From positions 1 to 64,000 of the forward strand of contig NZ_QKZO01000010.1 of the NCBI RefSeq assembly GCF_003254295.1: a stretch of DNA of 64,000 bases. Direction: 5' to 3'. A program made the position numbers and the translations under genes. The stretch is from Rhodobacter capsulatus (lineage in GTDB: Bacteria; Pseudomonadota; Alphaproteobacteria; Rhodobacterales; Rhodobacteraceae). This document shows, in pieces, positions 4,303 through 23,800 of the stretch (positions within the stretch are counted from its first letter, which is position 1; each line of letters starts with the position of its first letter). The notes beneath the pieces were generated by a model. It made no database searches. It was not told the origin of the DNA and saw only the letters and a list, made by a program, of their open reading frames with translations.

Positions 4303-4313
4303 CGGACACCTTT

Positions 4314-4362: not shown

Positions 4363-4431
4363 TAAGGTCGCCATCGTTTTTTCTGGACCGAACCCCGGGC
4401 GCTTCCTAATCTGGCCCTGGGGAAAGACCGG

Positions 4432-4900
4432 ATGCCGGGGATCACGCGACGCGGTCTGATCGGTTGGCGGGGCCGCCTTCTGCGCAACGCGGGGGCGGGC
4501 CGAGGCGGTGCTGCGCTTTGCCCTGACGCCGGTCATTTTCGACAACGATGCGGATGCGGCCGAAACCCTGCGTGCCGCGCTTGCCGCGGCAAGTGGCCAG
4601 ACGATCAAGTTGGTGCGGCGGCGTTCCTATGCCGAAATCACGGCGCTGCTTCTGGAAGGCAGCGTCGAGGCGGCTTGGCTTTGCGGCTATCCCTATCTGC
4701 AACATCGCGCCGAACTGGCGCTTCTGGGGGGCCGGTCTGGCGGGGCCGACTGCGCTATCAATCCTGTCCGATCGCCGCCGCGAGCGATCCGGCGCGCTGC
4801 CTGGCCGATCTGGCGGCGGCGCAAAACCTCGACGGGCTGGACTTGACCGGGTTGGAACTGACAGGCGGGGGGCCGCTGCGGGTGGGGGCGCCGCTGATCT
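4432..4900 (+). pseudogene. Frameshifted remnant of a PhnD-like periplasmic binding protein
   Basis: The sequence reads like the N-terminal third of a phosphate/phosphonate-type (PhnD/AioX-like) binding protein, spread over two frames. One frame gives ITRRGLIG, then the frame shifts to an AEA signal-peptide cleavage site followed by LRFALTPVIFDNDAD and SYAEITALLLEGSVEAAWLCG. The frame shifts back before RLRYQS and SDPARCLADLA. The sequence then stops at 4899-4901 with no C-terminal half. At least two frameshifts plus truncation make it non-functional. PhnD-like proteins near ars genes include arsenite-sensing AioX-type proteins, but too little is left to assign a subtype. Confidence 0.6.
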
Positions 4901-5719: not shown

Positions 5720-6954
5720 GCCAGCCTGCGCGCGGCACACCAGCTTGCGGCGGCCATCGCGCCTGCGGTGGCAAGGCACAGCGGCAGGCCGCCGATCTGG
5801 TAGCTCAGCCCCGAGAGCATCGTGCCGATCAGCCGCCCCGCCGCATTGGCCATGTAGTAAAAGCCGACATCGCGGGTGATCCGGGCGGCGTCGCCAAAGG
5901 CGAGGATCAGATAGGAATGCACCGAGGAATTGATCGCGAAGACGAAGCCGAAGGCGAGAAGCCCGATCAGGATCGTGGCGGTCAGCCCGGGCGCGGGCGC
6001 GGGGGCGATCAGCACGGCGGCTGCCAGCGCGAAGGGGATCGGCACCAGATAGCCCGCCCAGGTGATGGCTTTGGCGGTGATCGCGGCCTCGGGCTGGGAT
6101 TTCGCGCCCAGAAGCTTGGGCGCAAAGGCCTGCACCGCGCCGTAAGCGATGATCCAGAGCGCCATGAAACCGCCAGTCAGAAAGAACGCCTCGCGTCGGC
6201 CCTCGGCGGTGCCATCCGACAGAACCGCCTGAAAATACACGGGCAAGCCGACGACGAACCAGACATCGCGGGCACCGAAGAGGAACATCCGTGCCAGTGA
6301 CAGCCGGTTCACCCGCGGGTCTTTCGACCGCCAGCCGCCCCAGGCCTCCTCGGATTTCATCCGCCCCGGCAGGCCTGCGGGCAAAAACGCCACGACCGCG
6401 ATCAGGATCAGGGCAAGCAGCCCCGCCATGCCCCAGATCGCCGGCTTGAAGCCGACAAGCGCCAGCAAAGCCGCGCCAAGGAAGAAGCCCAGCCCCTTCA
6501 CCGCGTTTTTCGAGCCGGTCAACGCCGCGACCCAGCGGAAAAGCCCGCCCTCCGCGGCGGGGGCCAGAAGCTTGACCGCCGATTTCGAGGACATCTTCGC
6601 CAGATCCTTGGCCACGCCCGAGACGCCCTGCACCGCCATCACGAAGGCGACCGAGGCGGGGATCGACCAGCCGGGGCTCAGCTGGGCCAGCGCCACGAGG
6701 GCCGCGACCTGCAGCGCGAGCCCGGCGTAAAGCGTGGCGGCGAGGCCGAAGCGCGCCGCCAGCCAGCCCGCGCCAAGGTTGGTGCCGATGCCCGCCAGTT
6801 CGTAAAGCAGGAACAGCCAGGCCAGCGCCACCGGGCTGAAACCGAGGCCGTTGAAATGAAGCAGCACCAGCATCCGCAGCGCGCCATCGGTGAGCATGAA
6901 GGCCCAATAGGCGGCGGTGACGGCGGCATAGGCGCGGATCGGGTTTTCGGACAT
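5716..6954 (-). CDS. arsJ: ArsJ, major-facilitator exporter of 1-arseno-3-phosphoglycerate
   Basis: A 412-residue MFS protein with about 11-12 hydrophobic segments. The N-terminal sequence ending [20 protein letters not shown] and the loop [17 protein letters not shown] are typical of the ArsJ subfamily. In characterised systems a dedicated GAPDH makes 1-arseno-3-phosphoglycerate from arsenate and ArsJ exports it, giving arsenate resistance. Here the GAPDH gene lies immediately upstream on the same strand, 120 bases away, with the fused arsR-arsC gene before it, so the assignment is strong. The start MSENPIRAY follows a short gap holding two hairpins and a dispersed repeat. The stop overlaps the end of the moaA remnant. 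Confidence 0.9.
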
Positions 6955-6976
6955 GGCGGGTTCCCGTTCGGGCCGC

Positions 6977-7070
6977 CGGGGGCTGTCTGCCCCCGTTCGA
7001 TGGGGCAGCCTTCCACTGGAAGGCTGCTCGATCCCATCTCACCCGAGGATATTTGAAGCAAGATGAAAGG
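6977..7070. repeat. Two hairpins plus GGATATTTG/CAAGATGAAAG intergenic repeat inside ars operon
   Basis: The gap between the GAPDH and arsJ genes contains a CGGGGGC/GCCCCCG hairpin (6977-6995) and an almost perfect palindrome with 11-base arms, GCAGCCTTCCA and TGGAAGGCTGC (7005-7027). A conserved motif follows (7043-7070) containing GGATATTTG and CAAGATGAAAGG. The same motif, next to GGGGGC/GCCCCC hairpins, recurs near 35.8 kb and 59.7 kb. These hairpins could attenuate transcription or set mRNA decay between the two genes. Confidence 0.6.
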
Positions 7071-7074
7071 AAGA

Positions 7075-8088
7075 TCAGAGGCTTGCGGCGACCATCCGGG
7101 TGATATCGGCCATTCGGCAGACATAGCCCCATTCGTTGTCATACCAGGCGTAAAGCTTCAGCTGCGTGCCGTTCACCACCATCGTCGAAGGCCCGTCAAT
7201 GATGGCAGAGCGCGGGTCGTTGGTGAAATCGGACGACACCAGCGACCGGGTCTCGAAGCCGAGAATGCCCGCGAGCGGCCCCTCGGCCGCGGCTTGCAGG
7301 AGGCCGTTGACCTCCTCCACCGTGGTCGGGCGGTCAAGTTCGAAGACGCAATCGGTGAGCGAGGCATTGAGCAGCGGCACCCGGACGGCATGGCCATTCA
7401 GCCGCCCCTTGAGGTCCGGGTAGATCAGCGTGATCGCCGTGGCCGAGCCGGTGGTGGTGGGAATGAGGTTCAACAGCGCCGAGCGCGCCCGGCGCAGGTC
7501 TTTCGCGGGGCGGTCGACGATCGTCTGCGTGTTCGTCACATCATGCAGCGTGGTGATGGATCCGTGTTTGATCCCAAGGGCTTCGTGGATCACCTTTACC
7601 ACCGGCGCCAGGCAGTTGGTGGTGCAGGACGCCGCCGTGATCAGCCGCTGGCTGCCATCGTAAAGATGATGGTTGATGCCATAAACCAGGTTCAGCGCGC
7701 CCTCGTCCTTGACCGGGGCGGAAACGACGACCTTGCGCACGCCTGCGTCGAAATAGGGCTGCACCTTGGCGGCCGTCTTGAAATGGCCGGTGCAGTCGAG
7801 CACCAGATCGACGCCGAGCGCGGCCAGCGGCAGGGCTTCGAGGGTCTTTTCCCGCGTCAGGGGAATGTGCTGCCCCGCGATCTGAAGCCCGGCTTCGGGG
7901 ACGGCGACGGGGGTGGGCCAGCGGCCATGCACGGAGTCGAATTCCAGAAGCAGCGCGTGCGTTTCGGCATCGCCCAGGGCGTCATTGAGCAGCACGACCT
8001 GAGGCCCGTGGCCCAGATCGACCAGCCGCCGCAAGAGCAATTTTCCCATCCGGCCCAGGCCGTTGATCGCAATTCTGGCCATGGTCAT
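7075..8088 (-). CDS. gapdh (ars): ars-associated glyceraldehyde-3-phosphate dehydrogenase
   Basis: A 337-residue phosphorylating GAPDH. The NAD-binding start reads [17 protein letters not shown], and the catalytic motif [16 protein letters not shown] lies near residue 150. The substrate region [14 protein letters not shown] and the C-terminal [11 protein letters not shown] are also family signatures. The start is the ATG at 8088, coupled by ATGA to the end of the arsR-arsC gene; a second ATG at 8082 is possible. Next to arsJ, this enzyme is expected to use arsenate in place of phosphate and form 1-arseno-3-phosphoglycerate for export. Glycolytic use cannot be excluded, but operon context argues against that as its main role. 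Confidence 0.9.
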
Positions 8089-8930
8089 TCCCCCTCCGAC
8101 GTTGCGCCGATCGCATCGACGCGGGTCTGCAGCGCAAGGCGGTCGAGCGTGTCGAAGGGCAGCGCGACAAAGGCGGTGATGCGGGCCCGCAGCGCGCCAT
8201 AGGTTTGCGCGAAGACCAGCGCCTTTTCCGCCTCGGTGCCCGTGGCCTTCACCGGATCGGGCAGGCCCCAATGGCCGGTGATCGGCTGGCCGGGCCAGGG
8301 CGGGCATTCCTCGGCCGCGGCACTGTCGCAGACGGTGAAGACGAAATCCATCTGCGGCGCGGCCGGGCCTTGGAATTCCGACAGATGCTTGGCGCGCAGG
8401 CCGGTGATGTCGTGGCCGTTGCGGGTCAGCACCTCGAGCACGAAGGGGTGGATCGCGGTTCCGGGCCTTGTGCCGGCGGAATGGGCGGTGAACCGCCCCT
8501 TGCCCAGATCGCGCAGAAGCGCCTCGGCAAAGATCGAGCGGGCGGAATTGCCCGAGCAGATGAAGAGCACTTTGAACGGCGTATCGGGCATGAGATGTGC
8601 CTTTTCATGAAGGGCTTTGGGCAGCAGATCCGGGCGGGCCCGGCCCAGATCGAGGGCGAGATAACCGATCAGGGCTTCGGTTTTGTGAAGATCGACGGCG
8701 TAGAACAGCGACCGCCCTTGCCGGGTGACCGTGACCAGCCCGCAGCCGGTCAGATCCGCCAGATGATGCGAGAGCGTGTTTGGCTTGACCCCCAGCGCCG
8801 CGGCGATCTCCGTCGGCCGCACGCCCTGCGGCGCAAAGCGCATGAGCAGCCGGAACACCGCCAGGCGGCCCGGGTGGCCAAGGCAGGCGAAGGCTGCGGC
8901 GGCCTTTGGGGTGGGGCAAATGTCTTTCAT
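8085..8930 (-). CDS. arsRC: Fused ArsR repressor and thioredoxin-type arsenate reductase
   Basis: A 281-residue fusion. Residues about 1-105 are an ArsR winged helix (recognition region [17 protein letters not shown] near 48-64) with no CxC site. Residues about 117-281 are a low-molecular-weight phosphatase-fold arsenate reductase. Its P-loop CSGNSARS holds nucleophile Cys125 and Arg131, and the resolving pair lies in [15 protein letters not shown] at Cys201 and Cys209. The three-cysteine relay matches the thioredoxin-coupled ArsC class. As first gene of the GAPDH-arsJ operon it could both repress the operon and reduce arsenate. Joining sensor and enzyme on one chain could let substrate binding influence repression, but that is inference. 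Confidence 0.9.
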
Positions 8931-9074: not shown

Positions 9075-10928
9075 TCACAGCGCGGCCCGCCCGGCCAGCA
9101 GCGCGGCTTCGAAACGGCGGGTGAAATCCTCGGCATCGCCGAGCGTGCGCTCCCAGGCGCCGGTCGCCAGATGCGCCTTGAGCGCCCCGAGCCGCGCCGG
9201 ATCGGTGCCGATCGCCACCGCCAGATCCTCATAGCCCGCCAGATCCGCGGCGATGCAGTCGGGCAGGCCGATCGCGGTGAGCAGGCTCGCCCCCATCCGT
9301 GCGGCAAAGGCCCGGCCGCGGGTGGTGATCAGCGGCAGCCCCATGCGCAACGCATCCGAGGCGATCGTGCCCGCGTTGTAAGGCGTGGTGTCGAGGAACA
9401 GATCGGCCAGCGCCAGCCGGGCGCGGTAGCGTGCCGGATCGGTGCGGGCGGCAAAGATCAGCCGCTCGGGCGCCAGCCCCGCCGCGGCCCAGCGCGCCGT
9501 CAGCGCCGCGCGCGACTGCGGATTGTCGTCGATGATCCAGAGCACCGAACCGGGCACCCGGGCGACGATGCGGCCCCAGGCCCCCCAGACCGCCTCGGTC
9601 AGCTTGTAGTGATGCGAGACGCAGGTGAAGACGATGGCGTCCTCGGGCAGGCCCTCTTCGGCGCGGGTGACGGCGGGCAGCTCGGGCACGACGCCGTCAT
9701 TGGCCTGATAGCAGCCCGCGATCCGCAGCGGGCGGGGGCTGTAATCGGCCTCGGCCCCGGGCGGCACGGTGACCGCGTCGCACAGCAGATAATCGAGTTC
9801 GGGCAGCGGCACCGGGCCGATATAGCCCAGATAGGTCACCTGCATCGGCGCCGGTTTCGCCCGCAAGATCGCCGGGCGCGCGCCCTTGGTCAGCCCGTTC
9901 AGATCGATCAGGATGTCGATTTCATCGGCGCGGATGCGCGCGGCGGCCGCCTCGTCGGTCATCTCCTGGATCGGCACGTGATGATCGAGCGCCGCCAGCA
10001 CCCGGGCGCGCACGTCGCTGCCGTCGTCGCGGGTGGCGTCATAGCCCCAGATCTCGAAACGCGCGCGGTCATGGCGTTCCAGAAGCTCGGCGATCAGATA
10101 GCTCATCGCATGGCGGCAGAAATCCGAAGACAGATAGCCGATGCGCAGCCGGTCATGGCCATAGCCGCCCGCGGGCGCCAGAAGCTGCGGCGCCGCGGGG
10201 ATCTTGCGACCGATCCAGCTGGCGCAGATTTCGGCCTGGCGCGCCGGATCATCGACCAGCGCCAGCGCGGCGAGAGGGCCCGCATGGAGCGCCGCCATCG
10301 CCTCGGACAGGCCGGGCACGGCCAGTTCGGTCACCGGCCAGGCGGTGGTGCGCTGGCGGTTGTGCACCAGATGCTGGATCACGTCGGGCTGGTCGGGCGC
10401 GATCAAGAGCGCCGCCCGCGCCTCCTCGATCGCCTCGCCCAGACGGCCGCGATCTTCGAGCAGCCGCGCCATCTGGATGTGGATCTGCCGCCGCGCCTCG
10501 GCCGGGGGCAGGATCTCGCGCCAGACGCTCAGCGCCGCGTCGGGGGCGCCCGCCGCCTCGAAGGCCAGCCCGCGGCCAAGCCCCGCCTGCCACAGCCCGG
10601 GCCGCAGCCTTTGCGCCGTCTCAAGCGCCGCCGTCGCCTCGGCATGTTTGCCGATCCGCTGCAGCGCGACGCCCAGATTGTACCAGGCCGCCGCCGAGTC
10701 CCCCTTCTGGCCATGCTGCAAAAGCCAGGCGCGGTAAAGCGCCACCCCCTGCGCCGGGGCCACGGCCTCGCCGATGCTGACCAGCCCCTCGATCCCGAGG
10801 GCCGCCACCGCCCGCGCCAGATGCGGCGCCAGATCGCCCTGGGCCGTGAAGCCGCCGGGCTGGTGCAGCGCCGCGGCGATCGTCTGGGTGTCGCCGGGCA
10901 GGGGCAGGAACGGAACGACGGATGGCAA
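9075..10928 (-). CDS. SPINDLY/O-GlcNAc-transferase-like (GT41) glycosyltransferase with TPR region
   Basis: About 617 residues. The N-terminal third has helical TPR-like segments (YNLGVALQRIGKHAEATAALETA and following). From about residue 270 the C-terminal region matches the SPINDLY/OGT type of GT41: LRIGYLSSDFCRHAMSYLIAEL, DILIDLNGLTKGARPAILR, PMQVTYLGYIGPVPLPELDY, and FLDTTPYNAGTIASDALRMGLPLIT. Such enzymes add single sugars to Ser/Thr (or Asn for HMW1C types) of proteins in the cytoplasm. The start is taken as TTG at 10928 because an AGGAG lies 7 bases upstream of it; no ATG fits. It is divergent from the Ser/Thr-rich octapeptide-repeat gene, which is the obvious candidate substrate, though this is inferred from position only. 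Confidence 0.85.
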   Translation of the reverse strand: MPSVVPFLPLPGDTQTIAAALHQPGGFTAQGDLAPHLARAVAALGIEGLVSIGEAVAPAQGVALYRAWLLQHGQKGDSAAAWYNLGVALQRIGKHAEATAALETAQRLRPGLWQAGLGRGLAFEAAGAPDAALSVWREILPPAEARRQIHIQMARLLEDRGRLGEAIEEARAALLIAPDQPDVIQHLVHNRQRTTAWPVTELAVPGLSEAMAALHAGPLAALALVDDPARQAEICASWIGRKIPAAPQLLAPAGGYGHDRLRIGYLSSDFCRHAMSYLIAELLERHDRARFEIWGYDATRDDGSDVRARVLAALDHHVPIQEMTDEAAAARIRADEIDILIDLNGLTKGARPAILRAKPAPMQVTYLGYIGPVPLPELDYLLCDAVTVPPGAEADYSPRPLRIAGCYQANDGVVPELPAVTRAEEGLPEDAIVFTCVSHHYKLTEAVWGAWGRIVARVPGSVLWIIDDNPQSRAALTARWAAAGLAPERLIFAARTDPARYRARLALADLFLDTTPYNAGTIASDALRMGLPLITTRGRAFAARMGASLLTAIGLPDCIAADLAGYEDLAVAIGTDPARLGALKAHLATGAWERTLGDAEDFTRRFEAALLAGRAAL

Positions 10929-11205
10929 GGGCAAACTCCTTCTGGATGCCGACCTTCGCAGAGGTCTCGGCCCGAGCCTCGCATCGCAAGGTAAATCCGC
11001 GGTAAACAACCGGGCTTTTCCCGCGGTTGAATTGAATGCGACCTAATTTTTCAAGGCCGCGCGGGCTGCGAAGGGGCGGATTTAACCGCTCCGTAACGGC
11101 TTGCGCGCAAGGTCCGGTGACATGCGTGGCCGAGAACCGGCCGATGCCCGTCGGGGGGAATTCCCGATGGTGCAGATTGTTGATCCTTCAACCCGGGAAC
11201 GTACC

Positions 11206-13977
11206 ATGACTGCCATTTCTCTTATGACGACGGCCCAGATCGCGGCGCTGGAGACCTCCGCGATCGCGGCGCTGACGACGGCCGATGTCGCCTCGATGAC
11301 TTCCGCGCAGCTCGGCGCGCTGACCAGCGATCAGCTGCCGGTGCTCGGCACCGCCAATCTGCGCGTGCTGACCTCGGCGCAGCTGGCCGGGCTGACCGCG
11401 ACCCAGGTCCCGACGCTGCTTGACACCCAGGTCGCGGTGCTGACCACCGCGGGCATCAAGGGGCTCAGTGCGGCGGCGATCGGCGCGCTCGGCTCGGATC
11501 AGGCGGCGGTGCTCTCCTCGACCCAGCTGGCCGCGCTGACCACGACGCAGCTGCCCAACCTCACCACGACCGCCCTTGCCGGGCTGACGGCCACCGGCCT
11601 GCGCGGCCTCTCCTCGGCGCAGATCACCGCGCTGAGCAGCGCCGCCGCTGCCGCGCTGACCGCCGAGCAGATCGCCGGTCTCACCACCTCGGCGGTCAAG
11701 GGTCTTGAGGCGGCCGAAATCGCCGCTTTCACCTCGGCGCAGCTGGCGGGTTTCACCACCGCGCAGATCGCGGCGCTGGGCTCGGCCCAGCTTGACGATC
11801 TGACCACCACCCAGGCGCCGCTTCTGAGCACCGCGCAAGTGGCCGCGCTGAACGCCACGGCGGTTGCCGGGCTGACGTCGAGCTTCATCGGCGCGCTGGA
11901 TGGCGCCCGCGTCGCGGCGCTCTCGTCGAAACAGCTCGCCGCGCTGACCACGGCGCAGATCGACGACATCACCACCACCGCGATCACCAGCCTGACCACC
12001 GCGGCGGTGAAGGGTCTTGGCTCGGCCCAGGTGAGCGCGCTGACCAACGCCCAGGTCGGCCAGCTGACCACAGCGCAGATCGCCAACATGAGCGCCGCCG
12101 CCGTCAAGGGCCTGTCCTCGGCGGATCTGAACACCAACATGAGTTCGACCCAGGTCGCGGCGATGACCACGGCGCAACTGGCCGCGCTGTCTTCGGCGCA
12201 GCTCGCGGGCGTCAGCACCGCCACCGTCGCCGGTCTGAGCTCGACGCAGATCGGCGCGCTCAGCGCCACCGGCGTCGTCGGGGTGACCACCGCGACCGTC
12301 GCCGCCCTGACCACGGCGCAGGTCAAGGGCCTGAATGCCAAGCAACTTGCCGTCATGACCTCGGGTCAGATCGCGGCGATCGGGACGGCGGCGATCGACG
12401 ATCTGAGCACGGCGGCGATCAAGGGCCTCGGCTCGATGCAGGTCGATGCGATGACCACGACCCAGCTTGGCCAGCTGACCACGGCGCAGATCGCGCAGAT
12501 CTCGACCGCGGCGATCAAGGGGCTTGCGGCAGCCGACATCACGGCGCTCAGCGGCACGCAGATCGGCGGGCTGAGCTCGGCGCAGATCGCGGTGATGACC
12601 ACCGCGCAGGTGGCCGGGATCGAAAGCGCCGATATCGCCAGCCTGAGCACCGTTGCGGTGAAGGGCCTGACCTCGGCGCAGATCGCGGCGCTGTCCGATG
12701 CCCAGGCGGGGGCGCTGACCTCCACCCAGATCGGCCTGCTCTCGACCTCGGCGGTCAAGGGGCTGAGCACGGACGACATGGCGGGGCTGACGACGGCCGA
12801 GGCGCAGGCGCTGACTTCGGCGCAGATCGGGGCGCTCAGCTCGTCGCAGATCCGGGCCATGACCACGGCGCAGATCGCCGCGCTGGGCACCGCGCAGGTC
12901 AAGGGCTTCACCGCCGGCAACATCGCCGGCTTCGAGACCGCCGACATCGTGGCGCTGACCACCGCCCAGGCTGCGGCGCTGAGCTCGGCCCAGCTCGGCG
13001 CGCTCAGCACCTCGCTGCTGGCGGCGATGGAAACCGCCGATTTCGCCAAGCTTTCGACCGCGGCCGTCAAGGGCCTGACCTCGGCGCAGATCACCGCGCT
13101 GACCACGGCGCAGGCGGCGGCGCTCGGCACCGACCAGATCGCCCAGATCACCACGGCGGCGATCAAGGGGCTCGAGACCGCCGATCTCGCCGCGCTGGCC
13201 GACGCCACGCTGGCGAAGATGACGACGGCGCAGATCGGGGCATTGTCCTCGGCGCAGCTCGCCGGTCTGACCACGGCGCAGATCAACGGCGTGCTCGGCA
13301 CGGCGCAGGTCAAGGCGCTGGGGGCGGCGGCTCTGGCCGGGCTTGGCACCGATGACATCGTGGCGCTGACCACGGCGCAGGCGGCGGTGCTGACCTCGGC
13401 GCAGGTGGCGGCGCTCGGCACGGGGCAGATCGCGGCGCTCGAGACGGCCGATTTCGCCAAGCTTGCGACGGCGTCGGTGAAGGCGCTGAGCTCGACCCAG
13501 ATCGCGGCGCTGAGCACGGCGCAGATCGATGCCCTGACGACGGCGCAGGCGAAGGCGCTGACGGCGACGCAGATTGCGGCGATGTCGACCGCGCAGATCG
13601 GGGCGCTCGAAAGCCAGGATTTCGGCGCGCTGACCTCCACCGCGGTGAAGGCGCTGAGCACGGTTCAACTGGCGGCGCTGACCTCGGAACAGGGGGCGGG
13701 CTTCACCACGGCGCAGATCGCCAGCCTGACGACCGCGCAGATCGGGGCGATGTCCGTTGCCGCGCTCAATGAGCTGACCGTGGGCGCCGTTGCGGCGCTG
13801 GGCACGAAGCAGGTGATGGCTCTGACCACCGCCCAGCTCTCCGGCCTTGACGCCGGGATGCTTGGCGCGATGGAAACGGCGGATCTCGCGGCGCTGACCT
13901 CGACCCAGACGGCCGCCTTCAGCGCGACCCAGCTTGGCTATCTGACCGACGAACAGCGCTCGGCGCTGCTGCTCTGA
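11206..13977 (+). CDS. Giant octapeptide-repeat (L-T/S-T/S-A-Q-I-x-A/G) secreted-type protein
   Basis: The protein is about 923 residues and almost wholly made of about 114 tandem octads with consensus L-[TS]-[TS]-A-Q-[ILV]-x-[AG]. The register breaks by one residue only near octads 39 and 87. About every 4-7 octads a unit ends VKG or IKG, giving a higher-order pattern. There are no cysteines, no signal peptide and very few charged residues. The C-terminus ends RSALLL, compatible with an uncleaved type I secretion signal. The start is chosen at ATG 11206, where the repeats begin; ATG 11167 with a stronger GGGGGGA upstream would add 13 residues. An ABC/HlyD exporter, methyltransferase and GT41 enzyme surround it. 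I infer a secreted, possibly O-glycosylated surface or matrix protein. Confidence 0.85.
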   Translation: MTAISLMTTAQIAALETSAIAALTTADVASMTSAQLGALTSDQLPVLGTANLRVLTSAQLAGLTATQVPTLLDTQVAVLTTAGIKGLSAAAIGALGSDQAAVLSSTQLAALTTTQLPNLTTTALAGLTATGLRGLSSAQITALSSAAAAALTAEQIAGLTTSAVKGLEAAEIAAFTSAQLAGFTTAQIAALGSAQLDDLTTTQAPLLSTAQVAALNATAVAGLTSSFIGALDGARVAALSSKQLAALTTAQIDDITTTAITSLTTAAVKGLGSAQVSALTNAQVGQLTTAQIANMSAAAVKGLSSADLNTNMSSTQVAAMTTAQLAALSSAQLAGVSTATVAGLSSTQIGALSATGVVGVTTATVAALTTAQVKGLNAKQLAVMTSGQIAAIGTAAIDDLSTAAIKGLGSMQVDAMTTTQLGQLTTAQIAQISTAAIKGLAAADITALSGTQIGGLSSAQIAVMTTAQVAGIESADIASLSTVAVKGLTSAQIAALSDAQAGALTSTQIGLLSTSAVKGLSTDDMAGLTTAEAQALTSAQIGALSSSQIRAMTTAQIAALGTAQVKGFTAGNIAGFETADIVALTTAQAAALSSAQLGALSTSLLAAMETADFAKLSTAAVKGLTSAQITALTTAQAAALGTDQIAQITTAAIKGLETADLAALADATLAKMTTAQIGALSSAQLAGLTTAQINGVLGTAQVKALGAAALAGLGTDDIVALTTAQAAVLTSAQVAALGTGQIAALETADFAKLATASVKALSSTQIAALSTAQIDALTTAQAKALTATQIAAMSTAQIGALESQDFGALTSTAVKALSTVQLAALTSEQGAGFTTAQIASLTTAQIGAMSVAALNELTVGAVAALGTKQVMALTTAQLSGLDAGMLGAMETADLAALTSTQTAAFSATQLGYLTDEQRSALLL

Positions 13978-13993
13978 TCCGATCCGACAACGG

Positions 13994-14056
13994 CCGCTTC
14001 CGCTTCGGCGGAGGCGGTCTTCCCGATCCGGGGCTTCCGTCTGGAAGCCCCGTTTT
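13994..14056 (+). terminator. Tandem hairpin terminator after the octad-repeat gene
   Basis: Two strong hairpins follow the stop codon. The first is a 10-bp stem CCGCTTCCGC/GCGGAGGCGG closed by a TTCG tetraloop (13994-14017). The second is GGGGCTTCC-GTCT-GGAAGCCCC followed by GTTTT (14030-14056), a classic rho-independent terminator. Confidence 0.8.
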
Positions 14057-14160
14057 CATGTCCGGCCCCGACCGGCGGCCCCGACCGGCGGCGCCTCGAT
14101 GCCCTCCGGGGCGGCACTTCGGGGCGGCGGGAGCGGGCAGGCGCATCACGATGCAGAAGA

Positions 14161-14189
14161 AGGCCCGGATCAGATGATCCGGGCCTTTC
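14161..14189. terminator. Bidirectional hairpin between octad gene and methyltransferase gene
   Basis: A 12-bp stem AGGCCCGGATCA/TGATCCGGGCCT with a 2-base gap (14161-14186) is followed by TTT on the plus strand. It is preceded by AAGA, giving U-rich RNA on the minus strand. It lies about 40 bases beyond the minus-strand methyltransferase stop, so it probably ends that operon and backs up the upstream plus-strand terminator. Confidence 0.65.
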
Positions 14190-14225
14190 GCGGTCCTGTG
14201 CTTCATCTTGTCGGCGCCGGGCCGG

Positions 14226-14834
14226 TCAGGCCGCGGCAAGCCGGGTGCCGACCCCCCAAAGCGCGAAGCGGCCGTCGCGTTCGACGGTCACGCCCGCGAA
14301 ACCGGCGCGGGTCAGGTGCTCCTTCAGCGACTTGGCGGTGAAGCCGGTGCGATGGCCCATGAAGATGTTGCCTTCGGCCAGCGCGGGGCGGTAGCCGTAA
14401 AGGATGTCGAGCGGCGAGATCGGCCCGAGGCTCGACATGTAGGCGGGCTCTTCGAGCTGCCCCTCGGCCACCAGCGTTGCGACCTGCTGCAGATCGGGCA
14501 TCGTCACCAGCACGAAGCCGCCCGGTTTCAGCACCCGGATGAACTCGGCCAGCGCCACCGGAACCTCGTGCGGCGCCAGATGCTCGAGGTTGTGCGACGA
14601 CCAGACCGCATCGACGCTGGCATCGGCGACGGCCGACATGTCGGTCAGGCTGGCGACGATATCGGGGGCGACGTCGGGATCGATGTCAAGCCGCAGCTCG
14701 CGCCAGTCGGAAAGCGGGAAATACGCCTCGGGCAGTTTCGCCGGATGGGCAAGACCGCAGCCGACATGCAGCACGGTCCGGGTTTCGGTCATCGGCACCG
14801 CATCGGCGGTTTCGATCGGGGTGGCGTCGGTCAT
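14226..14834 (-). CDS. SAM-dependent methyltransferase, class I
   Basis: A 202-residue protein. Motif I is VLHVGCGLAHPAKLP, with an acidic strand-2 segment ELRLDIDPDVAPDIV. Motif post-I includes VDAVWSSHNLEHL, then FIRVLKPGGFVLVTMPD. This is the Methyltransf_11-like architecture seen for small cytoplasmic methyltransferases acting on sugars, lipids or proteins. The start is the ATG at 14834, preceded by AAGGAG at 6 bases; an upstream ATG lacks a ribosome-binding site. It is the third gene after the T1SS ABC and adaptor genes (49 bases downstream of the latter). It may modify the exported octad protein or its glycan. The substrate is unknown. Confidence 0.8.
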   Translation of the reverse strand: MTDATPIETADAVPMTETRTVLHVGCGLAHPAKLPEAYFPLSDWRELRLDIDPDVAPDIVASLTDMSAVADASVDAVWSSHNLEHLAPHEVPVALAEFIRVLKPGGFVLVTMPDLQQVATLVAEGQLEEPAYMSSLGPISPLDILYGYRPALAEGNIFMGHRTGFTAKSLKEHLTRAGFAGVTVERDGRFALWGVGTRLAAA

Positions 14835-14883
14835 GGGATTCTCCTTCATGGGCGATCTGAAAAAACGGGGGCGGTCATGGCGA

Positions 14884-16200
14884 TCACGGATCGCGCAGCG
14901 CTTCGGCCAATCCGCGCAGGATCGGTTCGAAGAACGTGGACAGGACAGAGCGGGTGCCGGTGTGGATTTCGGCCGAAAGCGTCATGCCGGGCAGAAGCGT
15001 CGCCGCGGGCGGCAGGTTGTCCAGCACCGCGGCGGGATCAAGCGCGACATGGGCGGGATGTTGCGCCTCCGAGGCGCCCTGGGCGCGGTAGCTGGCATGG
15101 CCGACCTCAGTCAGGGAGCCGGTCAGCTGGCCGTGTTCGCGCCAGGGAAAGGCGTCGATCTTGATCGAGACCGGATCGCCCGCCACGACCCGCCCGGCAT
15201 CGGTCGAGCGCAGCCCGATCTCGGCCAGAAGCGGCACATCGGTCGGCACCAGAACCACCACCGGATTGCCCGCCGGGATCAGGCTGCCGACGCCGCCTTC
15301 GGCGACGCGCAGCACCACACCCGGGCGCGGCGCGACCAGATCGGCCATTTCCCGCAGCGCGCGGGCCTTGGCGATCTGCTCCTCGACCACCTGCAGCCGC
15401 GGCTGCGCCTCGGCGAGCTGTTCGCTGGCGGAGCGTTTCAGGCTGGTCAGGAACATCCGATGTTCGGCGATGGCGCGGTCGCGACGGTCGCGCAATTCGG
15501 CCAGGCGGCTTTCATGGGCGCGCTGGTCGGCCTCGGCGCGCAGCCGCATCAGCCGCGCATCGAGCACCGCGAGCTGCGAGCCGCTTTGCCGTTCGGCCAG
15601 GGTGTTGCGCATCGCCTCGACCTCGCGCAGGATCGAGAGCTGCTCGCGCAGCCCCGCGCCATCGCCGGTCTCGGCTTCGATCAGGGCCTCGGCCGAGGCG
15701 ATTTCGGCCTGCAGCGCCTCGGCTTTCGTGCGGCTTTCCAGCCGCCGCTCGGTCAGCACATCGGCTTCCGCGGCCAGCGCCGGGCCGGTTTCGGCCAGCA
15801 CGCCGCCCTCAAGTTCCGCGGTCAGCCGCGCGATCCGGGCCGAAAGCGCATCGCGCTCGGCCTCAAGCGCGGCCAGATCGGCCTCGGGCTGGGTCGGATC
15901 GAGCCGCGCCAGCAGCTGACCCGCCACCACCACATCGCCCGGACGCACCAGGAGCGCGTCAAGCCGGGTGCTGGCGGCGGGGCGCAGCATCAAGGGCGGC
16001 TCGGCGGCGGCCAGCTGGCCGGGCGCCGTCACCACGACATCGACGCGCAAGATCGCGGCAAGCCCGATCAGCCCCGCCAGCAGCGCCGCCGCCAGAAACG
16101 GCCAGAGCCGCAGCAGCACCGGCACCGGCTCGACCTGCACCCGGTCGAGATCGTCCTGAAAGGCAATGGCCTCGCGGTCGATGGAGCCAAGCTGGATCAT
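14884..16200 (-). CDS. HlyD-family periplasmic adaptor of a type I secretion system
   Basis: A 438-residue membrane-fusion protein. A single N-terminal transmembrane helix (about residues 30-50, WPFLAAALLAGLIGLAAIL) follows a short cytoplasmic start. A lipoyl-like half (TAPGQLAAAEPPLML) and a long alanine/glutamate/arginine-rich coiled coil (about 110-290) come next, then the second lipoyl half (LVAPRPGVVLRVAEGGVGSLIPAG) and a beta-barrel domain. The start at 16200 overlaps the ABC gene stop (ATGA). It should link the ABC exporter to an outer-membrane TolC-like channel, which is not encoded in this window. Confidence 0.9.
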   Translation of the reverse strand: MIQLGSIDREAIAFQDDLDRVQVEPVPVLLRLWPFLAAALLAGLIGLAAILRVDVVVTAPGQLAAAEPPLMLRPAASTRLDALLVRPGDVVVAGQLLARLDPTQPEADLAALEAERDALSARIARLTAELEGGVLAETGPALAAEADVLTERRLESRTKAEALQAEIASAEALIEAETGDGAGLREQLSILREVEAMRNTLAERQSGSQLAVLDARLMRLRAEADQRAHESRLAELRDRRDRAIAEHRMFLTSLKRSASEQLAEAQPRLQVVEEQIAKARALREMADLVAPRPGVVLRVAEGGVGSLIPAGNPVVVLVPTDVPLLAEIGLRSTDAGRVVAGDPVSIKIDAFPWREHGQLTGSLTEVGHASYRAQGASEAQHPAHVALDPAAVLDNLPPAATLLPGMTLSAEIHTGTRSVLSTFFEPILRGLAEALRDP

Positions 16201-18374
16201 TCCGTCTGCCCCGCCTGTTGCAGCCACAGATGGCGATAGGTCGTCGACCGCGCCAGAAGCACCGCATGGGGTGCGAAATCCTCGATCCGGCCGCGATCCA
16301 GCACCAGGATCGCATCGGAACGGGCCAGCGAACTCATCCGGTGCGAGACCACGATCACCGTGCGGCCCTGCGCGATGGCGGCCAGATTGCGGTTCACCAC
16401 CGCCTCGGATTCCGGGTCAAGCGCGCTGGTCGCCTCGTCGAGGATCAGGATCGGCGGATCGGCGAGCAGCGCGCGCGCGAGCGCGATGCGTTGCCGCTGC
16501 CCGCCCGAAAGGTTTGCCCCGCCTTCCTCGACCGGGGTATCAAGCCCCTGCGGCAGCCGGTCGATGAATTCCGCCGCCCCCGCCAGCGTCGCGGCGCGCA
16601 GCACCGCCTCGTGGCTGGCATCGGGACGGGCAAGCGCGATGTTTTCGCGCAGGGTGCCGCGGAACAGCACGTTTTCCTGCAGCACGATGCCGACCGAGCG
16701 GCGCAGATGGTCCAGATCGATGTGGCGCGCGTCATTGCCGTCGTAAAGGATGCGGCCCGATTGCGCCGATCCGATCCCCTGCAACAGCCGCGTCAGCGTC
16801 GTCTTGCCCGAGCCCGAACGCCCGACGATGCCGATCACCTGCCCGGCGGCGATGTCGAGGGTCAGATGATCAAGCGCAGGCGTCGCGGTGCCGGGATAGG
16901 TGAAGCACAGATCCTCGATCCGGATCGCGCCGCGCAGTGCCGGGCGGATCGGCCGCACCTCGGGGCCGCGCTCGGGCGGGTGGTCCATCACGCCGCGCAG
17001 GGTGCGCACGGCGAGCGCGGCCTCCTGCCATTCGTTGATCAGCCCGACGATCTGCACCAGCGGGCCGGTGACCCGCCCGGACAGCATCATGAAGGCGACC
17101 AGCGTGCCGACGCTGATCTGCCCCGAGAGCACCTGTTCGGCGCCAAGGCCCAGAACCGCGACCTGCATCAGCCGCTCCATCAGCGAGGTCAGCGCGCTGA
17201 CGGTGGCGGAAAGCTCCCCCACCTGCCACTGGCTGCGGATCGTGCGCGCGAGCGCCGTTTCCCAAAGCCCGCGCCGGGTGCCCTCCAGCACCAGCGCCTT
17301 TACGGTGCGCATGTTGTGCAGCGTCTCGACCAGATGCGCCTGCCGCCCCGCCTCGGCGTCGTAAAGCGCCGAAAGACGGCGTTGCAGCGCGGGCAGGAAC
17401 AGCGCCAGAAGCCCCGCGATGGTCAGCGCAAAGCCCAGAACGACCAGCGTCATCAGCCCTGAAAGCAGCGCCAGAAGCGTCAGCAGCACCGGCAAAAGCG
17501 CCGCATCCAGCATCGTCTGAAACAGCCGTCCGACCAGAAAATGTCGTATTTTTTCCGTCAGTTGCATGTTGCGGGCCAGAATCCCCGCGGCCGTCGTCTC
17601 AAACACCGACAAAGGCAGCGAGAGCAGATGCGCATGCACCGCCGCGCCGATCCGCGCATCGAGCCGCCCGCCGCAGATCTGCATCAGGCGCTGGCGCACA
17701 TAGCTGAAGGCGGCGTCGAACAGCACCAGGAATACATAGACCGACAGCACCGCCGCCAGCGTGTTCCAGCTGTGCGAGGAAATCACGCTGTCGATCATCA
17801 CCTGCATCAGGAAGGGCAGGGCAAAGGCGATCAGGTTGCCCGCCACCACCGCCACCGCGACGCCGCCAAAGAGCGCGCGCTGCTCCAGCAGCGCCGGCAT
17901 GAACCAGCCCAGACCAAAGGGCCGCCGCGCCGAGGTTTCGGACTTGCGCAGCCGCGCGAGGATCAGCCGCCCCGACCAGCGCGCCTCGAAGTCTGCCTGC
18001 GGCAGGAACAGGATGCCCTCGCCCTCGCGCGCGGGGTCAAGGATGGCGGCATGCGGCCCGGCGGGCAGATCGACGGTATGGGCGAGGATGAACCAGCGGC
18101 CGTCCTTGCCCTCGCACAGCGCCGGATAGGCCGAGCCGAGCCCCTTCGCCGTGCGCCAGCTGCCGCCGCTGATCTGGCGGCTGCGAAAGCCCGCGCGCTG
18201 AAAGGTCGCCTCGAGCCGGGGGGCGATGCTGCCCTCTTCCAGCGTGGGGATCTCGGTCACCGGCAGGGTGACGCCGTGGTGCAGGCAGATCAGGAACAGG
18301 CCCCGCAACGCCGTCATCTGCGGCGAGCCGAGGGCGATGTCTTCCTGTTGGCGGGGCGAAAGCGCATGGGTCAT
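16197..18374 (-). CDS. Type I secretion ABC transporter with C39-like peptidase domain
   Basis: A 725-residue HlyB-type exporter. Residues about 1-145 form a C39 peptidase-like domain in which the catalytic cysteine region is degenerate (a CLD, used to bind substrate rather than cut it). Membrane helices span about 160-440. The nucleotide-binding domain has Walker A GRSGSGKT, signature LSGGQRQR and Walker B ILILDEATSALD, then the H-loop VVSHRM. It is the first gene of an operon with the HlyD adaptor and a methyltransferase. Likely cargo includes the octad-repeat protein and possibly the RTX proteins at 21-28 kb, which carry no Sec signal. Confidence 0.9.
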   Translation of the reverse strand: MTHALSPRQQEDIALGSPQMTALRGLFLICLHHGVTLPVTEIPTLEEGSIAPRLEATFQRAGFRSRQISGGSWRTAKGLGSAYPALCEGKDGRWFILAHTVDLPAGPHAAILDPAREGEGILFLPQADFEARWSGRLILARLRKSETSARRPFGLGWFMPALLEQRALFGGVAVAVVAGNLIAFALPFLMQVMIDSVISSHSWNTLAAVLSVYVFLVLFDAAFSYVRQRLMQICGGRLDARIGAAVHAHLLSLPLSVFETTAAGILARNMQLTEKIRHFLVGRLFQTMLDAALLPVLLTLLALLSGLMTLVVLGFALTIAGLLALFLPALQRRLSALYDAEAGRQAHLVETLHNMRTVKALVLEGTRRGLWETALARTIRSQWQVGELSATVSALTSLMERLMQVAVLGLGAEQVLSGQISVGTLVAFMMLSGRVTGPLVQIVGLINEWQEAALAVRTLRGVMDHPPERGPEVRPIRPALRGAIRIEDLCFTYPGTATPALDHLTLDIAAGQVIGIVGRSGSGKTTLTRLLQGIGSAQSGRILYDGNDARHIDLDHLRRSVGIVLQENVLFRGTLRENIALARPDASHEAVLRAATLAGAAEFIDRLPQGLDTPVEEGGANLSGGQRQRIALARALLADPPILILDEATSALDPESEAVVNRNLAAIAQGRTVIVVSHRMSSLARSDAILVLDRGRIEDFAPHAVLLARSTTYRHLWLQQAGQTE

Positions 18375-20455: not shown

Positions 20456-20868
20456 TCGCGGCAGCCTGCGGCGATTCGGCCACCTGCGCCGCCCGCCGCA
20501 AGACTGCCGTTTCCGCCCCGGGCACGGTTCCGCCGCGGCCCCGCCGCGCGCCTGCCACCGCATCGCCGCAGCGATGAACAAAGCCCGCCCCGCGCGCGGC
20601 CGCGGCAAGGATCTGTTCACCACGCCGCAGAACTTGCGCCGCAATCCCGGGCCGGGCGGCTTGTCGCATCGCCCCGCGACCGGGTAGGGTCAACTCCGGG
20701 AAGCGGATCCCCCGGTGGCCATGAAGGCCCTGTCTTCCCCCCCAGACGCCAAAGGCGTCCCTCCTTTCACGCGACGCCGAAGGCGTTTCCCCTTTCCCGT
20801 CGTCGTTTGCCGACCGGCCCGCCGGTCGTATGGCCGCGTGCCGCACGCGCCCGATCAGGAGTGCCCGG
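20456..20868. other. Intergenic stretch with tandem small hairpins, no gene
   Basis: About 410 GC-rich bases lie between the metal ATPase and the RTX protease gene. I see no coding frame of merit. Two related hairpins occur 28 bases apart, GACGCC-AAA-GGCGTC (20745-20759) and GACGCC-GAA-GGCGTT (20773-20787). They lie in the likely 5' leader of the protease gene, about 80-125 bases before its start. Confidence 0.45.
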
Positions 20869-23800
20869 ATGCCCCTTCCCACCTTCACCGAGGACCAGGC
20901 GGTCCAGCAGCTCATCCGTGGCTATTTCGGCGGCTACACCTATGGCTGGGCGCTTGATGCGTCCCGCACGCTCACCTATTCCTTCACCGCCTCGGTCAGC
21001 ACCGCCGAGCGCGCGCTGATCGAGACCGCGCTGGACAGCTGGGCCGCGGTGGCGGGGATCAGTTTCGTCCGGGTCGCCAGCGGCGGCCAGATCGGCTTTC
21101 AGAACAGTGCCGCGGGCGCCTATTGTTCGATGAGCGGCACCGGCACGAACATGGTCTCGGCCTCGGTCAATGTGTCTGCAAGCTGGTTCAGCAACTATGG
21201 CGGCACGCTGGGCAGCTACAGCTACCAGACCTATGTCCACGAGATCGGCCATGCGCTCGGGCTGGGCCATACCGGCAATTACAACGGCTCGGCCAGTTTC
21301 GCCCGTGATGCGCTTTATGCCAATGACAGCTGGCAGACCTCGGTCATGTCCTATTTCGCGCAGACCCAGAACCCGAACACCGGCGCGAGCTCTGCCTATC
21401 TGCTGACGCCGATGGCCTTCGACATCGCGGCGATGCGGGCGCTTTACGGCGCCCCGGCCGCGGTACATGGCGGCAACACCACCTATGGCAGCGGCTCGAC
21501 CGCGGGCGACGGGCTGGATTATCTGGCCAGCGCAAACCACCGGGCCGATGTCGCCTTCACCCTGATGGACACCGACGGCATCGACACGCTTGATTTTTCC
21601 GCCCGAGCCGAGGCGGCGCGGATCGATCTGACGCCCGGGGCGATCTCGGATCTGTTCGGGCAGCGCGGCAACATGGTGATCTATGCCGGCACGGTGATCG
21701 AACATGTCCGCAGCGGCGCCGGGGCGGATCGGATCACCGGCAACAACGCCGCGAACCGCATCGCCGCGGGGGCGGGCAATGACACCGTCGCGGGCGGGGC
21801 GGGCGATGACACGCTCTCGGGCGAGGCGGGCGACGACCGGCTTGCGGGCGAGGGCGGCAACGATCTGCTGACCGGCGGCGCGGGGGCGGATATCTTCACC
21901 TTCGGCACCGGCTTTGGCACCGACACGATCGCGGATCTGGTCGCGAGCATCGATTACGTCGATCTCTCCGCCATCGCCGCGATCGCCGACTGGAGCGCGC
22001 TGCTGGCGCTGATGGCCGACACCGCCGCGGGCGTGCGCATCGCCACCGCCGAGGGCACGATCCTGCTTTCGGGGCTCGTGATCTCGATGCTCGATCCGGC
22101 GCATTTCCTGTTTGCGGGCGGCAGCGGGACCGGGGGCGGCAGCGGGACCGGGGGCGGCTCCGGCGGCAGTGTCGGGCTGGTGCTGGCGGGCAGCGCGGGC
22201 CGCGACACGCTTCTGGGCGGGCAGGGCGCCGACACGATCGACGGCGGCATGGGCAATGACAGCATCACCGCGGGGGCGGGCAATGACAGCGTCACCGGCG
22301 GCGCGGGCAATGACACGATCCAGTTGCAGGACGGCGACGACATCTTCATCGACGGCACCGACAGCGGCGCCGATCTGGTCTGGGGCGGGGCGGGGGCGGA
22401 TGTGCTGACCAGCCGCGGCGGCAGCGACTCGCTGCACGGCGAGGCGGGCGACGATCTTTTGCAGGCGGGCCCCGCGGGCGGTCTGCTCTCGGGCGGGCTG
22501 GGCGATGACACGCTGCAAGGCGGGACCGGCGCCGACCGGGTCAGCGACAGCGGTGGCGCCGATGTGGTGAGCCTCGGCGCGGGCAACGACAGCTACATCG
22601 GCACCGGCGACACCGCGACCGGGGGCGACAGCGTCTCGGGCGGCGACGGCAACGACCGGATCGAGACCGGCGCGGGCCTTGACACGATCCTCGGCGGCGC
22701 CGGGCGGGACACGATCAGCGCGGGCGCGGGCAATGACATTGTCAGCGGCGGCGCCGATGCCGACCGCATCGATCTGGGCGCGGGCGACGACATCTTCACC
22801 GACACCACCGACGCGGGGGCCGACACGGTTCTGGGCGGGGCAGGCAATGAGGTGCTGACCAGCCTGGGCGGGCGCGACAGTCTGGACGGCGGCGCGGGCA
22901 ACGACAGCCTGACCGCCTCGGCGGCGGGCAGCATGCTGCAGGGCGGTCTGGGCAATGACACGCTGCGCGGCGGTGCCGGGGCCGACAGAGCGGCCGATAC
23001 CGGCGGCAATGATCTGGTCGATCTGGGCGCGGGCAATGACAGCTACACCGCCAGCGGTGACAGCGCCGCAAATGCCGATACCGTGCGGGGCGGCGATGGC
23101 AATGACGTGATCACCGGCGGCGCAGGCGGCGACAGTCTGGACGGCGGCAGCGGCGACGACCGGCTGGCGGGCAATGACGGCGCGGACACGATCCTCGGCG
23201 GTGCCGGGCGGGACACGATCAGCGCGGGCGCGGGCAATGACATTGTCAGCGGCGGCGCCGATGCCGACCGCATCGATCTGGGCGCGGGCGATGACATCTT
23301 CACCGACACGGCCGATGCGGGCGCCGATGCGGTCATGGGCGGGCTGGGCAACGAGGTGCTGACCAGTCTTGGCGGCCTTGACACGCTGGACGGCGGCGCG
23401 GGCAACGACAGGCTGACCGCCTCGGATGCGGGCTCGCGTCTGGCGGGCGGGCTTGGCAACGACACGCTGCAGGGCGGCGCCGGGATCGATGCGGTGACCG
23501 ACACCGGCGGCAATGATCTGGTCAGCCTTGGCGCGGGCGACGACAGCTTCACCGCCACCGGTGACAGCGCTGCAAGCTCCGACACGATCTCGGCCGGGGC
23601 GGGCAACGACCGGATCTCGGCCGGGGCCGGGAACGACCTGCTGCTGGGCGAGGCGGGCAATGACAGCCTGACCGCGGGCGCGGGCAACGACCGGCTGACG
23701 GCGGGCACGGGCAACGACCTGATGACCGGCGGGCTGGGCAACGATGTCTTCATCTTCGCGACCGGCGATGGCACCGACCGGATCACCGATTTCCGCATCG

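Follow-up and report, generated by a model that had tools for sequence, protein, structure and literature searches.

The locus analyzed here lies in a window of 64 kb (the whole stretch of DNA that was analyzed) and raises the question of whether a glycosyltransferase, a repeat protein and a secretion apparatus encoded side by side form one system. The first-pass annotation had listed a GT41 glycosyltransferase, a 923-residue octad protein, a methyltransferase, an HlyD adaptor and a type I secretion system (T1SS) ABC exporter, and profile matches confirmed all five at their positions. The octad gene is on the plus strand (11206..13977, from an ATG at 11206 to a stop at 13977) and is followed on that strand by a terminator-like hairpin (14029..14052) with a 10-pair stem and a T-containing tail. 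The minus strand carries the GT41 gene (9075..11009), a class I SAM methyltransferase (14226..14849; PF08241, 43.8 bits), the HlyD-type periplasmic adaptor (14884..16227) and the ABC exporter (16197..18374). Five hairpins were found in the region, a number near chance (mean, 3.9), and a promoter scan of the locus region found none.

We parsed the translated octad protein and recovered the 923 residues, the roughly 114 octads and the absence of Cys that had been claimed. The protein consists of 114 octads with the consensus L-T-T-A-Q-I-A-A plus 11 residues outside them, and Ser and Thr together make up 220 residues (23.8%). The claim that each octad has one to three Ser/Thr held for 107 of the 114, five octads having none and two having four or five. 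No signal peptide was seen, as had been stated, the first 25 residues being without K/R or a strong hydrophobic stretch in a crude test. A dedicated octad substrate of this kind had been held not to be a standard described system; the repeat itself is already in Pfam as PF20080 (ALTTAQ repeat), and the match (574 bits; cut-off, 26.4) makes the protein a member of this family. Because of this score, and because SP108 and G1032, two other genomes, have the same length of 923 residues, the repeat is not a product of chance; compared with SP108, the gene shows 168 synonymous and 101 non-synonymous codon changes. The Pfam line for PF20080 gives a name and no function, and proteins of the family on plasmids are annotated as heme utilization protein, ICE nucleation protein or hypothetical protein. 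N-linked modification was ruled out, since there are only 4 N-x-S/T sequons (and 11 Asn) in 923 residues compared to the 220 Ser and Thr. A phage origin was likewise rejected, as tblastn of the protein against 50,697 phage records gave no match. RTX repeats (GGxGxD nonapeptides, PF00353) were not among the Pfam matches listed for the protein; an ALTTAQ-RTX fusion protein was found in a Desulfamplus MAG (PF00353, 94 bits). The AlphaFold2 model predicts a single short helix per octad. In a Foldseek search against the PDB, mesothelin gave the sole matches with an E value below 0.001, at a TM of 0.46 or less, and we regard these matches as uninformative.

The GT41 enzyme matches PF13844 with 224 bits (cut-off, 25), and TPR_2, TPR_8 and TPR_1 matches above cut-off cover its N-terminal part. 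The coordinates 9075-11009 correspond to the longest start; the likely start is near 10928, at a TTG after AGAAGGAG. The enzyme had been labeled SPINDLY, a name that sequence comparison does not support: SPINDLY matches with 140 bits, whereas human OGT and XcOGT reach up to 217-227 bits; judged by these scores, the enzyme is closer in sequence to OGT. The Lys aligned to what we take to be the active-site Lys of OGT is conserved in all 11 linked GT41 enzymes compared.

The exporter contains ABC_membrane (130.7 bits) and ABC_tran (116.1 bits) domains, both above cut-off, and the adaptor matches TIGR01843 (228.6 bits; cut-off, 208.65). At the N terminus of the exporter, the Peptidase_C39 match reaches 18.3 bits, under the cut-off of 22, and no Cys is common to the three long exporters that were aligned, consistent with a degenerate, C39-like (CLD) domain; in exporters beyond these three, a CLD was judged by ORF length. 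The match to the HlyB subfamily model TIGR01846 (558 bits) is also under its cut-off (725.55). By its domains, the pair thus fits a T1SS of the CLD class, as had been proposed, with the C39 and TIGR01846 matches both below cut-off. A TolC model that we derived from two genes of Pseudomonas found no match in the 64-kb window, and it did match in both Pseudomonas plasmid loci and in G998.

Co-occurrence of the octad protein, GT41 and T1SS in other genomes, a search that the first-pass annotation had suggested, was found both within the genus and beyond it. Among 18 genomes of the genus, GT41 was above cut-off in 5, and ALTTAQ was present in the same 5 and in none of the 13 others (hypergeometric, 1.2e-4). 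The two genes are adjacent in all five, despite altered gene order. An exporter orthologue (79-98%) was likewise found only in these five; the other exporter matches among those listed have 28-36% identity over long alignments. One of the five, G1027, has the exporter and HlyD on a different contig from ALTTAQ-GT41, the contig ends concerned being tens of kb away from both. A close relative of the methyltransferase (73-100%) occurs in 4 of the 5 genomes. The same locus is present in G1032 and also on C. sphaeroides plasmids.

For a wider view we compared 52 loci in stretches of at least 9 kb, 34 of them canonical and 18 divergent, the latter being Pfam matches that fall under our own strict ALTTAQ model. 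They came from genome searches (3/3, 6/6, 4/4 and 14/28 positives, besides the own genome), from three further sources (one of which, SP108, is G1036) and from 17 of 57 plasmid records, two of the 17 plasmids being also part of G333 and G467, with one or two loci per source. Flanks ranged from 0.9 to about 18 kb, some stopping at contig ends, and the sample includes same-species strains (three of Cereibacter) and close relatives. With models (GT41, ABC, HlyD, methyltransferase, TolC) built partly from loci later counted with them, GT41 was found in 27 of the 34 canonical loci, 7 lacking it, and the ABC-HlyD pair in 18 of 34. None of the 18 divergent loci had GT41 in the fetched stretch; in one of them (G700) it lies about 6 kb from the ALTTAQ gene, beyond that stretch. 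Genome-wide, GT41 was absent from 10 of 35 ALTTAQ-positive genomes. In whole genomes with canonical loci, GT41 lay within about 5 kb of ALTTAQ in 14 of 17 (expected, 0.26). This test excludes genomes whose fetched loci were Pfam-only, works with numbers entered by hand and treats every GT41 HMM piece as a separate gene; G763 enters it as a miss on account of the C1 locus, even though a poly-GT41 ORF adjoins the ALTTAQ ORF on C92. All 10 suspected GT41 neighbors of ALTTAQ genes that were scanned matched PF13844. GT41 together with a T1SS was also found beside ALTTAQ in Cereibacter, two Pseudomonas plasmids, G467, Pseudoroseomonas and further genomes, and no T1SS gene was seen in the fetched stretches near the GT41-linked rhizobial, Rhodovastum, Tepidiphilus, G495 and G980 loci. 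The earlier proposal of a single module of GT41, octad protein and T1SS is thus supported by co-occurrence in the genus and recurrence in other lineages, but not in full: the exporter is not universal, some ALTTAQ-GT41 loci are without a T1SS gene in the fetched stretch, and many divergent ALTTAQ loci are without both there. As a guess, one ALTTAQ-rich family (f197) may be linked to the EPS glycoproteins of Accumulibacter (PMC11320575).

The octad protein ends in a C-terminal tail of 34 residues (13873..13974, plus strand) of the type ETxDIxALxxxQxxAFxxxQxxxMxxxQxxALFL. The E-T-x-D start lies exactly 34 residues before the C terminus in 15 of 19 compared ALTTAQ proteins, namely 13 of the 17 from genomes with a long T1SS ABC exporter and two unlinked Rhodobacter paralogues; the four of the 17 that lack it (G700, G709, G735 and G738) belong to one family. 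The tail is a candidate export signal. A search of five ALTTAQ relatives for NCBIfam T1SS targeting domains hit RTX-type models in the Desulfamplus fusion alone, all below cut-off, and otherwise gave nothing but sub-cut-off chance matches. Beyond ALTTAQ itself, Pfam gave only sub-cut-off matches on four ALTTAQ C-terminal ends. We also compared Ser/Thr frequencies in 35 proteins, leaving out G700, fragments and duplicate strains. Position 3 of the octad was Ser/Thr at a frequency of 0.80 in 22 GT41-linked proteins, compared to 0.51 in 13 unlinked ones, position 3 having been picked after viewing the data and the test being uncorrected for four positions and for kinship. Position 2 was equal in both groups. 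The GT41-linked protein of G980 is low at position 3 (0.37) and high at position 4 (0.76), and four unlinked proteins have at least 0.70 at position 3.

RTX proteins are the classical cargo of T1SS, and the exporter of the window has such neighbors: a serralysin (RTX protease) beside it at 20830-23970 and a further RTX ORF at 26017-28032. It could therefore export these proteins, its adjacency to ALTTAQ-GT41 being incidental, or it could serve both. In each of the five ALTTAQ-positive genomes of the genus, RTX ORFs are found no more than about 10 kb from the cluster, and a close serralysin (79-100%) occurs in four of the five and nowhere else among the 18. In G1031, both genes are close to contig ends, the serralysin 3.8 kb from that of C20 and the exporter 0.4 kb from that of C25 (length, 21,644); the two are therefore probably neighbors parted by a contig gap. 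However, serralysin domains are present in 12 of the 18 genomes, 7 of which have neither ALTTAQ nor this exporter (two of the 7 with weak matches, E of about 1e-7 to 1e-8). Furthermore, G1027 retains ALTTAQ, GT41 and the exporter, whereas its own serralysin is only 58% identical and lies mid-contig elsewhere, and this kind (56-60%) is also found in two genomes without the exporter. In other genomes, the stretches fetched for eleven T1SS-linked ALTTAQ loci (G077, G130, G467, G562, two Pseudomonas plasmids, G998, G709, G738, G735 and Pseudoroseomonas) are free of RTX ORFs. These loci and G1027 weaken export of RTX proteins only, and we consider an exporter explained by its RTX neighbors unlikely.

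The role of GT41 can be questioned as well. It might mainly be an O-glycosyltransferase of flagellins, or serve another client, with ALTTAQ not being its substrate. FlmG has a plan of TPR plus GT-B and glycosylates flagellins before their export (PMC7591256), and flagellar genes are found next to ALTTAQ-GT41 on plasmids of Pseudorhizobium flavum and Rhodovastum. The other annotated GT41-linked plasmid stretches are without flagellar annotation in the PLSDB gene tables, which are incomplete, and within the genus GT41 is present or absent together with ALTTAQ and remains next to it through changes of gene order, so that we regard this role as improbable. Alternatively, GT41 could be a chaperone that holds the octad protein unfolded for export, sugar transfer being minor or absent; such a role has been considered for HMW1C, itself a GT41 protein, in a review (PMC3983070). 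The retention of the aligned Lys in 11/11 enzymes, the sugar-nucleotide genes close to several loci (gmd, glf, UDP-glucuronate decarboxylase and rfbABD near ALTTAQ relatives) and the enrichment of Ser/Thr at position 3 in GT41-linked proteins all speak against it, and we hold it to be very improbable.

We thus favor, with moderate confidence, the reading that the locus is a dedicated module by which an octad solenoid is O-glycosylated in the cytoplasm and exported by a type I system. Its computed basis is the gene content, the co-occurrence of the genes, the retention of the exporter alongside them, the conserved tail, the predicted fold and the Ser/Thr enrichment; from these we infer modification of the octad protein, its donor sugar and acceptor site, its secretion and where it ends up, on the surface or in the matrix. 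The ALTTAQ protein would be synthesized in the cytoplasm and gripped by the TPR part of GT41, while the catalytic part would put O-linked sugars on Ser/Thr, most likely on the residue at position 3 of the octad (or at position 4 in proteins of the LTTTQ or LSATQ type), with a load of roughly one per octad. This glycan may perhaps be capped by the methyltransferase. The ABC exporter and HlyD adaptor, with a TolC from a gene elsewhere, would then recognize the 34-residue tail and export the chain unfolded, to fold outside as a rod of short helices with rows of sugars. Counting against this reading, a stable helical octad fold would have to stay unfolded ahead of T1SS export.

By analogy, the module is best read as a counterpart of HMW1-HMW1C and of the serine-rich repeat proteins. 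In the HMW1/HMW1B/HMW1C system of Haemophilus, a GT41 enzyme is likewise tied to a large secreted adhesin with a dedicated transporter, and sugars are added in the cytoplasm ahead of export (PMC3983070). However, HMW1C is N-linking, with an AAD domain in place of TPRs and export through Sec and the HMW1B pore, whereas the octad locus has a TPR-GT41, only 4 sequons, no signal peptide seen and a T1SS. The TPRs and the 4 sequons in 923 residues do not fit an HMW1C-like N-glycosyltransferase. The serine-rich repeat proteins (GtfA/GtfB, SecA2/Y2) also combine a dedicated priming glycosyltransferase, an export system and a Ser/Thr-rich repeat cargo in clustered genes (PMC6973325). Unlike the octad locus, they are Gram-positive, use different enzymes and a different translocase, and have a long signal peptide, a trait that the crude N-terminus test did not find on the octad protein. 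FlmG of Caulobacter resembles the proposed enzyme in that its TPR part binds the substrate and O-glycosylation is soluble and precedes export (PMC7591256), but its substrate is flagellin, exported by the flagellar machinery, and its donor is pseudaminic acid. HeliScrew4 (PDB 9zem), judged here from its name and alignment alone, has octads of the AALTPEQI type and matches the octad protein by phmmer (E, 5.8e-12), but its position 3 is mostly Pro, and homology is not implied, because this is a low-complexity match. No paper came up in literature searches on ALTTAQ, on HeliScrew or on an O-GlcNAc transferase combined with a type I secretion system, and a GT41-T1SS link to the PF20080 family was not found in the literature searched.

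More tentatively, ALTTAQ and GT41 might form a portable core for sugar-coated helical rods, in which the repeat encodes the acceptor (position 3 or 4) and each lineage swaps the export route. The routes would be a long CLD-type T1SS together with an ALFL-type tail, a short PrtD-like T1SS together with a long C-terminal domain and, in rhizobia, a third one; in one ALTTAQ-rich family, the core would have expanded until one polypeptide holds at least four GT41 units. If this is true, HMW1 and the serine-rich repeat proteins would be joined by a third class of exporters dedicated to glycoproteins, a Gram-negative one. The favored reading by itself would give a function to a repeat family now annotated as heme utilization, ICE nucleation or hypothetical protein. 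Bacterial OGT-like enzymes would be tied to a concrete substrate, for which the octad protein would be an attractive, defined scaffold in studies of OGT specificity, and a type I exporter would be able to carry cargo glycosylated in the cytoplasm. Overall, this would be a little-studied route by which a secreted protein is coated with sugar before it leaves the cell.

The locus at 9075-18374 consists of five genes: a TPR and GT41 glycosyltransferase (-), the octad protein (11206-13977, +), a class I methyltransferase (-), an HlyD adaptor (-) and an ABC exporter (-). Gene content and the octad parse agree with the first-pass annotation, which had described five genes, the repeat pattern and a Cys-free octad protein. 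Starting at the ATG at 11206, this protein has 923 residues and 114 octads (consensus L-T-T-A-Q-I-A-A), 107 of which carry one to three Ser/Thr; it contains 220 Ser+Thr and no Cys. It matches the Pfam ALTTAQ repeat (PF20080) with 574 bits, and its closest named relative, in Rhodobacter capsulatus SP108, is 88% identical. On plasmids, the family is variously annotated as heme utilization protein, large exoprotein, ICE nucleation protein or hypothetical protein. Beside the locus, the genes at 2960-8930 resemble a cluster for arsenic resistance (ArsP-like permease, MFS, GAPDH, ArsR-ArsC fusion). The best reading of the five genes is a putative module in which the TPR-GT41 enzyme would O-glycosylate the octads in the cytoplasm and the unfolded chain would then leave by type I export.

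PF20080 is scarce in whole genomes: counting our own (24 contigs, 3.67 Mb, including the window), it was found in 3/295 genomes of the family, 6/385 of the class and 28/398 of the phylum (25 above cut-off), these samples overlapping in part. Within the genus, GT41 exceeded the cut-off in 5 of 18 genomes (our own, G1027, G1031, G1032 and G1036). PF20080 was present in exactly the same five, adjoining GT41 in every one, and the remaining 13 had neither, so that the co-occurrence in other genomes that the first-pass annotation had proposed to look for was indeed found. The hypergeometric chance of this coincidence is 1.2e-4 (n=18), the genomes being related and not independent. Overall, GT41 was detected in 25/35 ALTTAQ-positive genomes versus 10/56 other genomes scanned for it. 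GT41 alone does not imply ALTTAQ, since ten GT41-positive genomes outside the genus lacked ALTTAQ (two of these GT41 matches were weak).

We then considered 52 distinct ALTTAQ loci in stretches of at least 9 kb each, 34 of them canonical, i.e., matched by a strict model built on the window's own octads, and 18 recognized by Pfam only. Within the stretches examined, 27/34 canonical loci contained GT41 and 18/34 an ABC-HlyD pair; none of the 18 Pfam-only loci contained GT41, the GT41 of G700 lying just past the stretch end, and among these 18 only G700 had the T1SS pair. GT41 lay within ~5 kb in 14 of 17 genomes with canonical loci (0.26 expected), and all ten suspected GT41 neighbors scanned matched PF13844. 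ALTTAQ-GT41 loci were found on Cereibacter plasmids, in Rhodovastum and in several rhizobia, as well as on two Pseudomonas plasmids, there with TolC; a Pseudoroseomonas locus had two GT41 genes. No GT41 was seen in the stretches examined from two Shinella, Thioclava, Polaromonas, Sinorhizobium RAC02 and Rhizobium CB3090. The two genes are divergent in the window's genus and Cereibacter, and run ALTTAQ to GT41 in the same direction in Pseudomonas, Rhodovastum, Tepidiphilus, G998 and G980. Because gene order varies between lineages, their closeness speaks for selection on proximity.

Genes for flagellin or flagellar export lie next to ALTTAQ-GT41 in Pseudorhizobium flavum and Rhodovastum (stretches L144 12123-20614 and L085 4319-24538), and no T1SS match was found in these stretches. 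In the ALTTAQ-rich family f197, single open frames of 2,367 to 3,781 aa carry complete GT41 units in tandem, numbering from two to at least four (L171 1254-12596(-), which is G763:C92; L173 7380-15797; L174 1930-9030; L175 5420-12805; L176 3939-12071). At least four units were counted in the 3,781-aa frame of G763:C92; a 3,382-aa ALTTAQ frame on the same contig ends at ~47,890, and its start must be roughly 1 kb from this GT41 frame.

AlphaFold2 predicted one helix per octad (26 octads, 26 helices; mean pLDDT 95.6, pTM 0.86), a confidence that may be inflated because all 34 alignment rows were repeats of four proteins. Without an alignment, the best of five models (pLDDT 79) had nearly identical helices, except that the final pair was fused; pLDDT was <50 in the four remaining models. 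PDB 9zem, named HeliScrew4, has the same octad plan (E 5.8e-12). Octad position 2 is Ser/Thr in GT41-linked and unlinked groups alike, as would be expected of a helix cap. Position 3 is mostly Pro in HeliScrew4 and Ala or Pro in several unlinked relatives. In a comparison picked after looking at the data, its Ser/Thr fraction was 0.80 in GT41-linked proteins (n=22) versus 0.51 in unlinked ones (n=13; p 3.6e-4, uncorrected, relatives not independent), whereas positions 2 and 4 did not differ. This enrichment, the sole pointer to a site, hints at position 3 as the candidate acceptor.

Among the matches listed for the window ABC exporter in the genus, orthologues (79-98% identity) were confined to the four further ALTTAQ-positive genomes; the remaining matches had 28-36% identity over long alignments. 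The obvious rival cargo is the serralysin-type RTX protease at 20830-23970, which is followed by a further RTX ORF at 26017-28032. A close serralysin (≥79%) is present in 4/5 ALTTAQ-positive genus genomes and in no other, RTX ORFs are close to the cluster in all five, and in G1031 the serralysin and the exporter are possibly neighbors separated by a contig gap. However, the serralysin domain occurs in 12/18 genus genomes, seven of which lack both ALTTAQ and a window-type exporter, and outside the genus eleven T1SS-linked ALTTAQ loci had no RTX ORF in the stretches examined. Within the genus, the rival is weakened by one genome, since only G1027 clearly separates exporter and close serralysin. 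There, ABC and HlyD sit together on C32, with 20 kb between them and one contig end, whereas ALTTAQ and GT41 lie ~35 kb inside C23; the exporter is thus co-retained with ALTTAQ-GT41 without close linkage. In a Desulfamplus protein, ALTTAQ repeats are fused to RTX repeats within a single reading frame, which makes this relative a probable T1SS substrate.

Among 17 ALTTAQ proteins whose genomes encode a long, CLD-size T1SS ABC, 13 are similar in their last 34 residues: E-T-x-D sits exactly at -34, and the terminus is hydrophobic (ALFL, for example); the four without this tail are all from f197 (G700, G709, G735 and G738). E-T-x-D also occurs within the repeats, and the tail is marked by its fixed distance, not by the motif. 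The Pseudomonas (578 and 573 aa) and G998 (~580 aa) ABC proteins are shorter and lack the N-terminal domain, and their ALTTAQ proteins have a long nonrepeat C-terminal part. Rhizobial ALTTAQ proteins have IAAY-like tails, and no T1SS gene was found nearby. Four of the five ALTTAQ-positive genus genomes have a second ALTTAQ gene, an open frame of 2,185 to 2,361 aa (L067 872-7792 (G000:C14); G1031:C17; G1032:C1:677175-683381; G1036:C122), with no GT41 or T1SS match in the flanks examined. The two of these unlinked paralogues whose ends were read share the 34-residue tail, so one exporter may serve both linked and unlinked ALTTAQ proteins of the genus.

A literature search with little coverage of subscription journals and preprints returned no mention of ALTTAQ and nothing joining an O-GlcNAc transferase or SPINDLY with a type I secretion system. 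HMW1-HMW1C and the serine-rich repeat systems work similarly to the proposed module, but the window locus differs from both in its TPRs, an O-linkage suggested by composition, no signal peptide seen and a T1SS. The sugar-nucleotide genes lying close to relatives (gmd, glf, UDP-glucuronate decarboxylase, rfbABD) suggest that the sugar donor varies.
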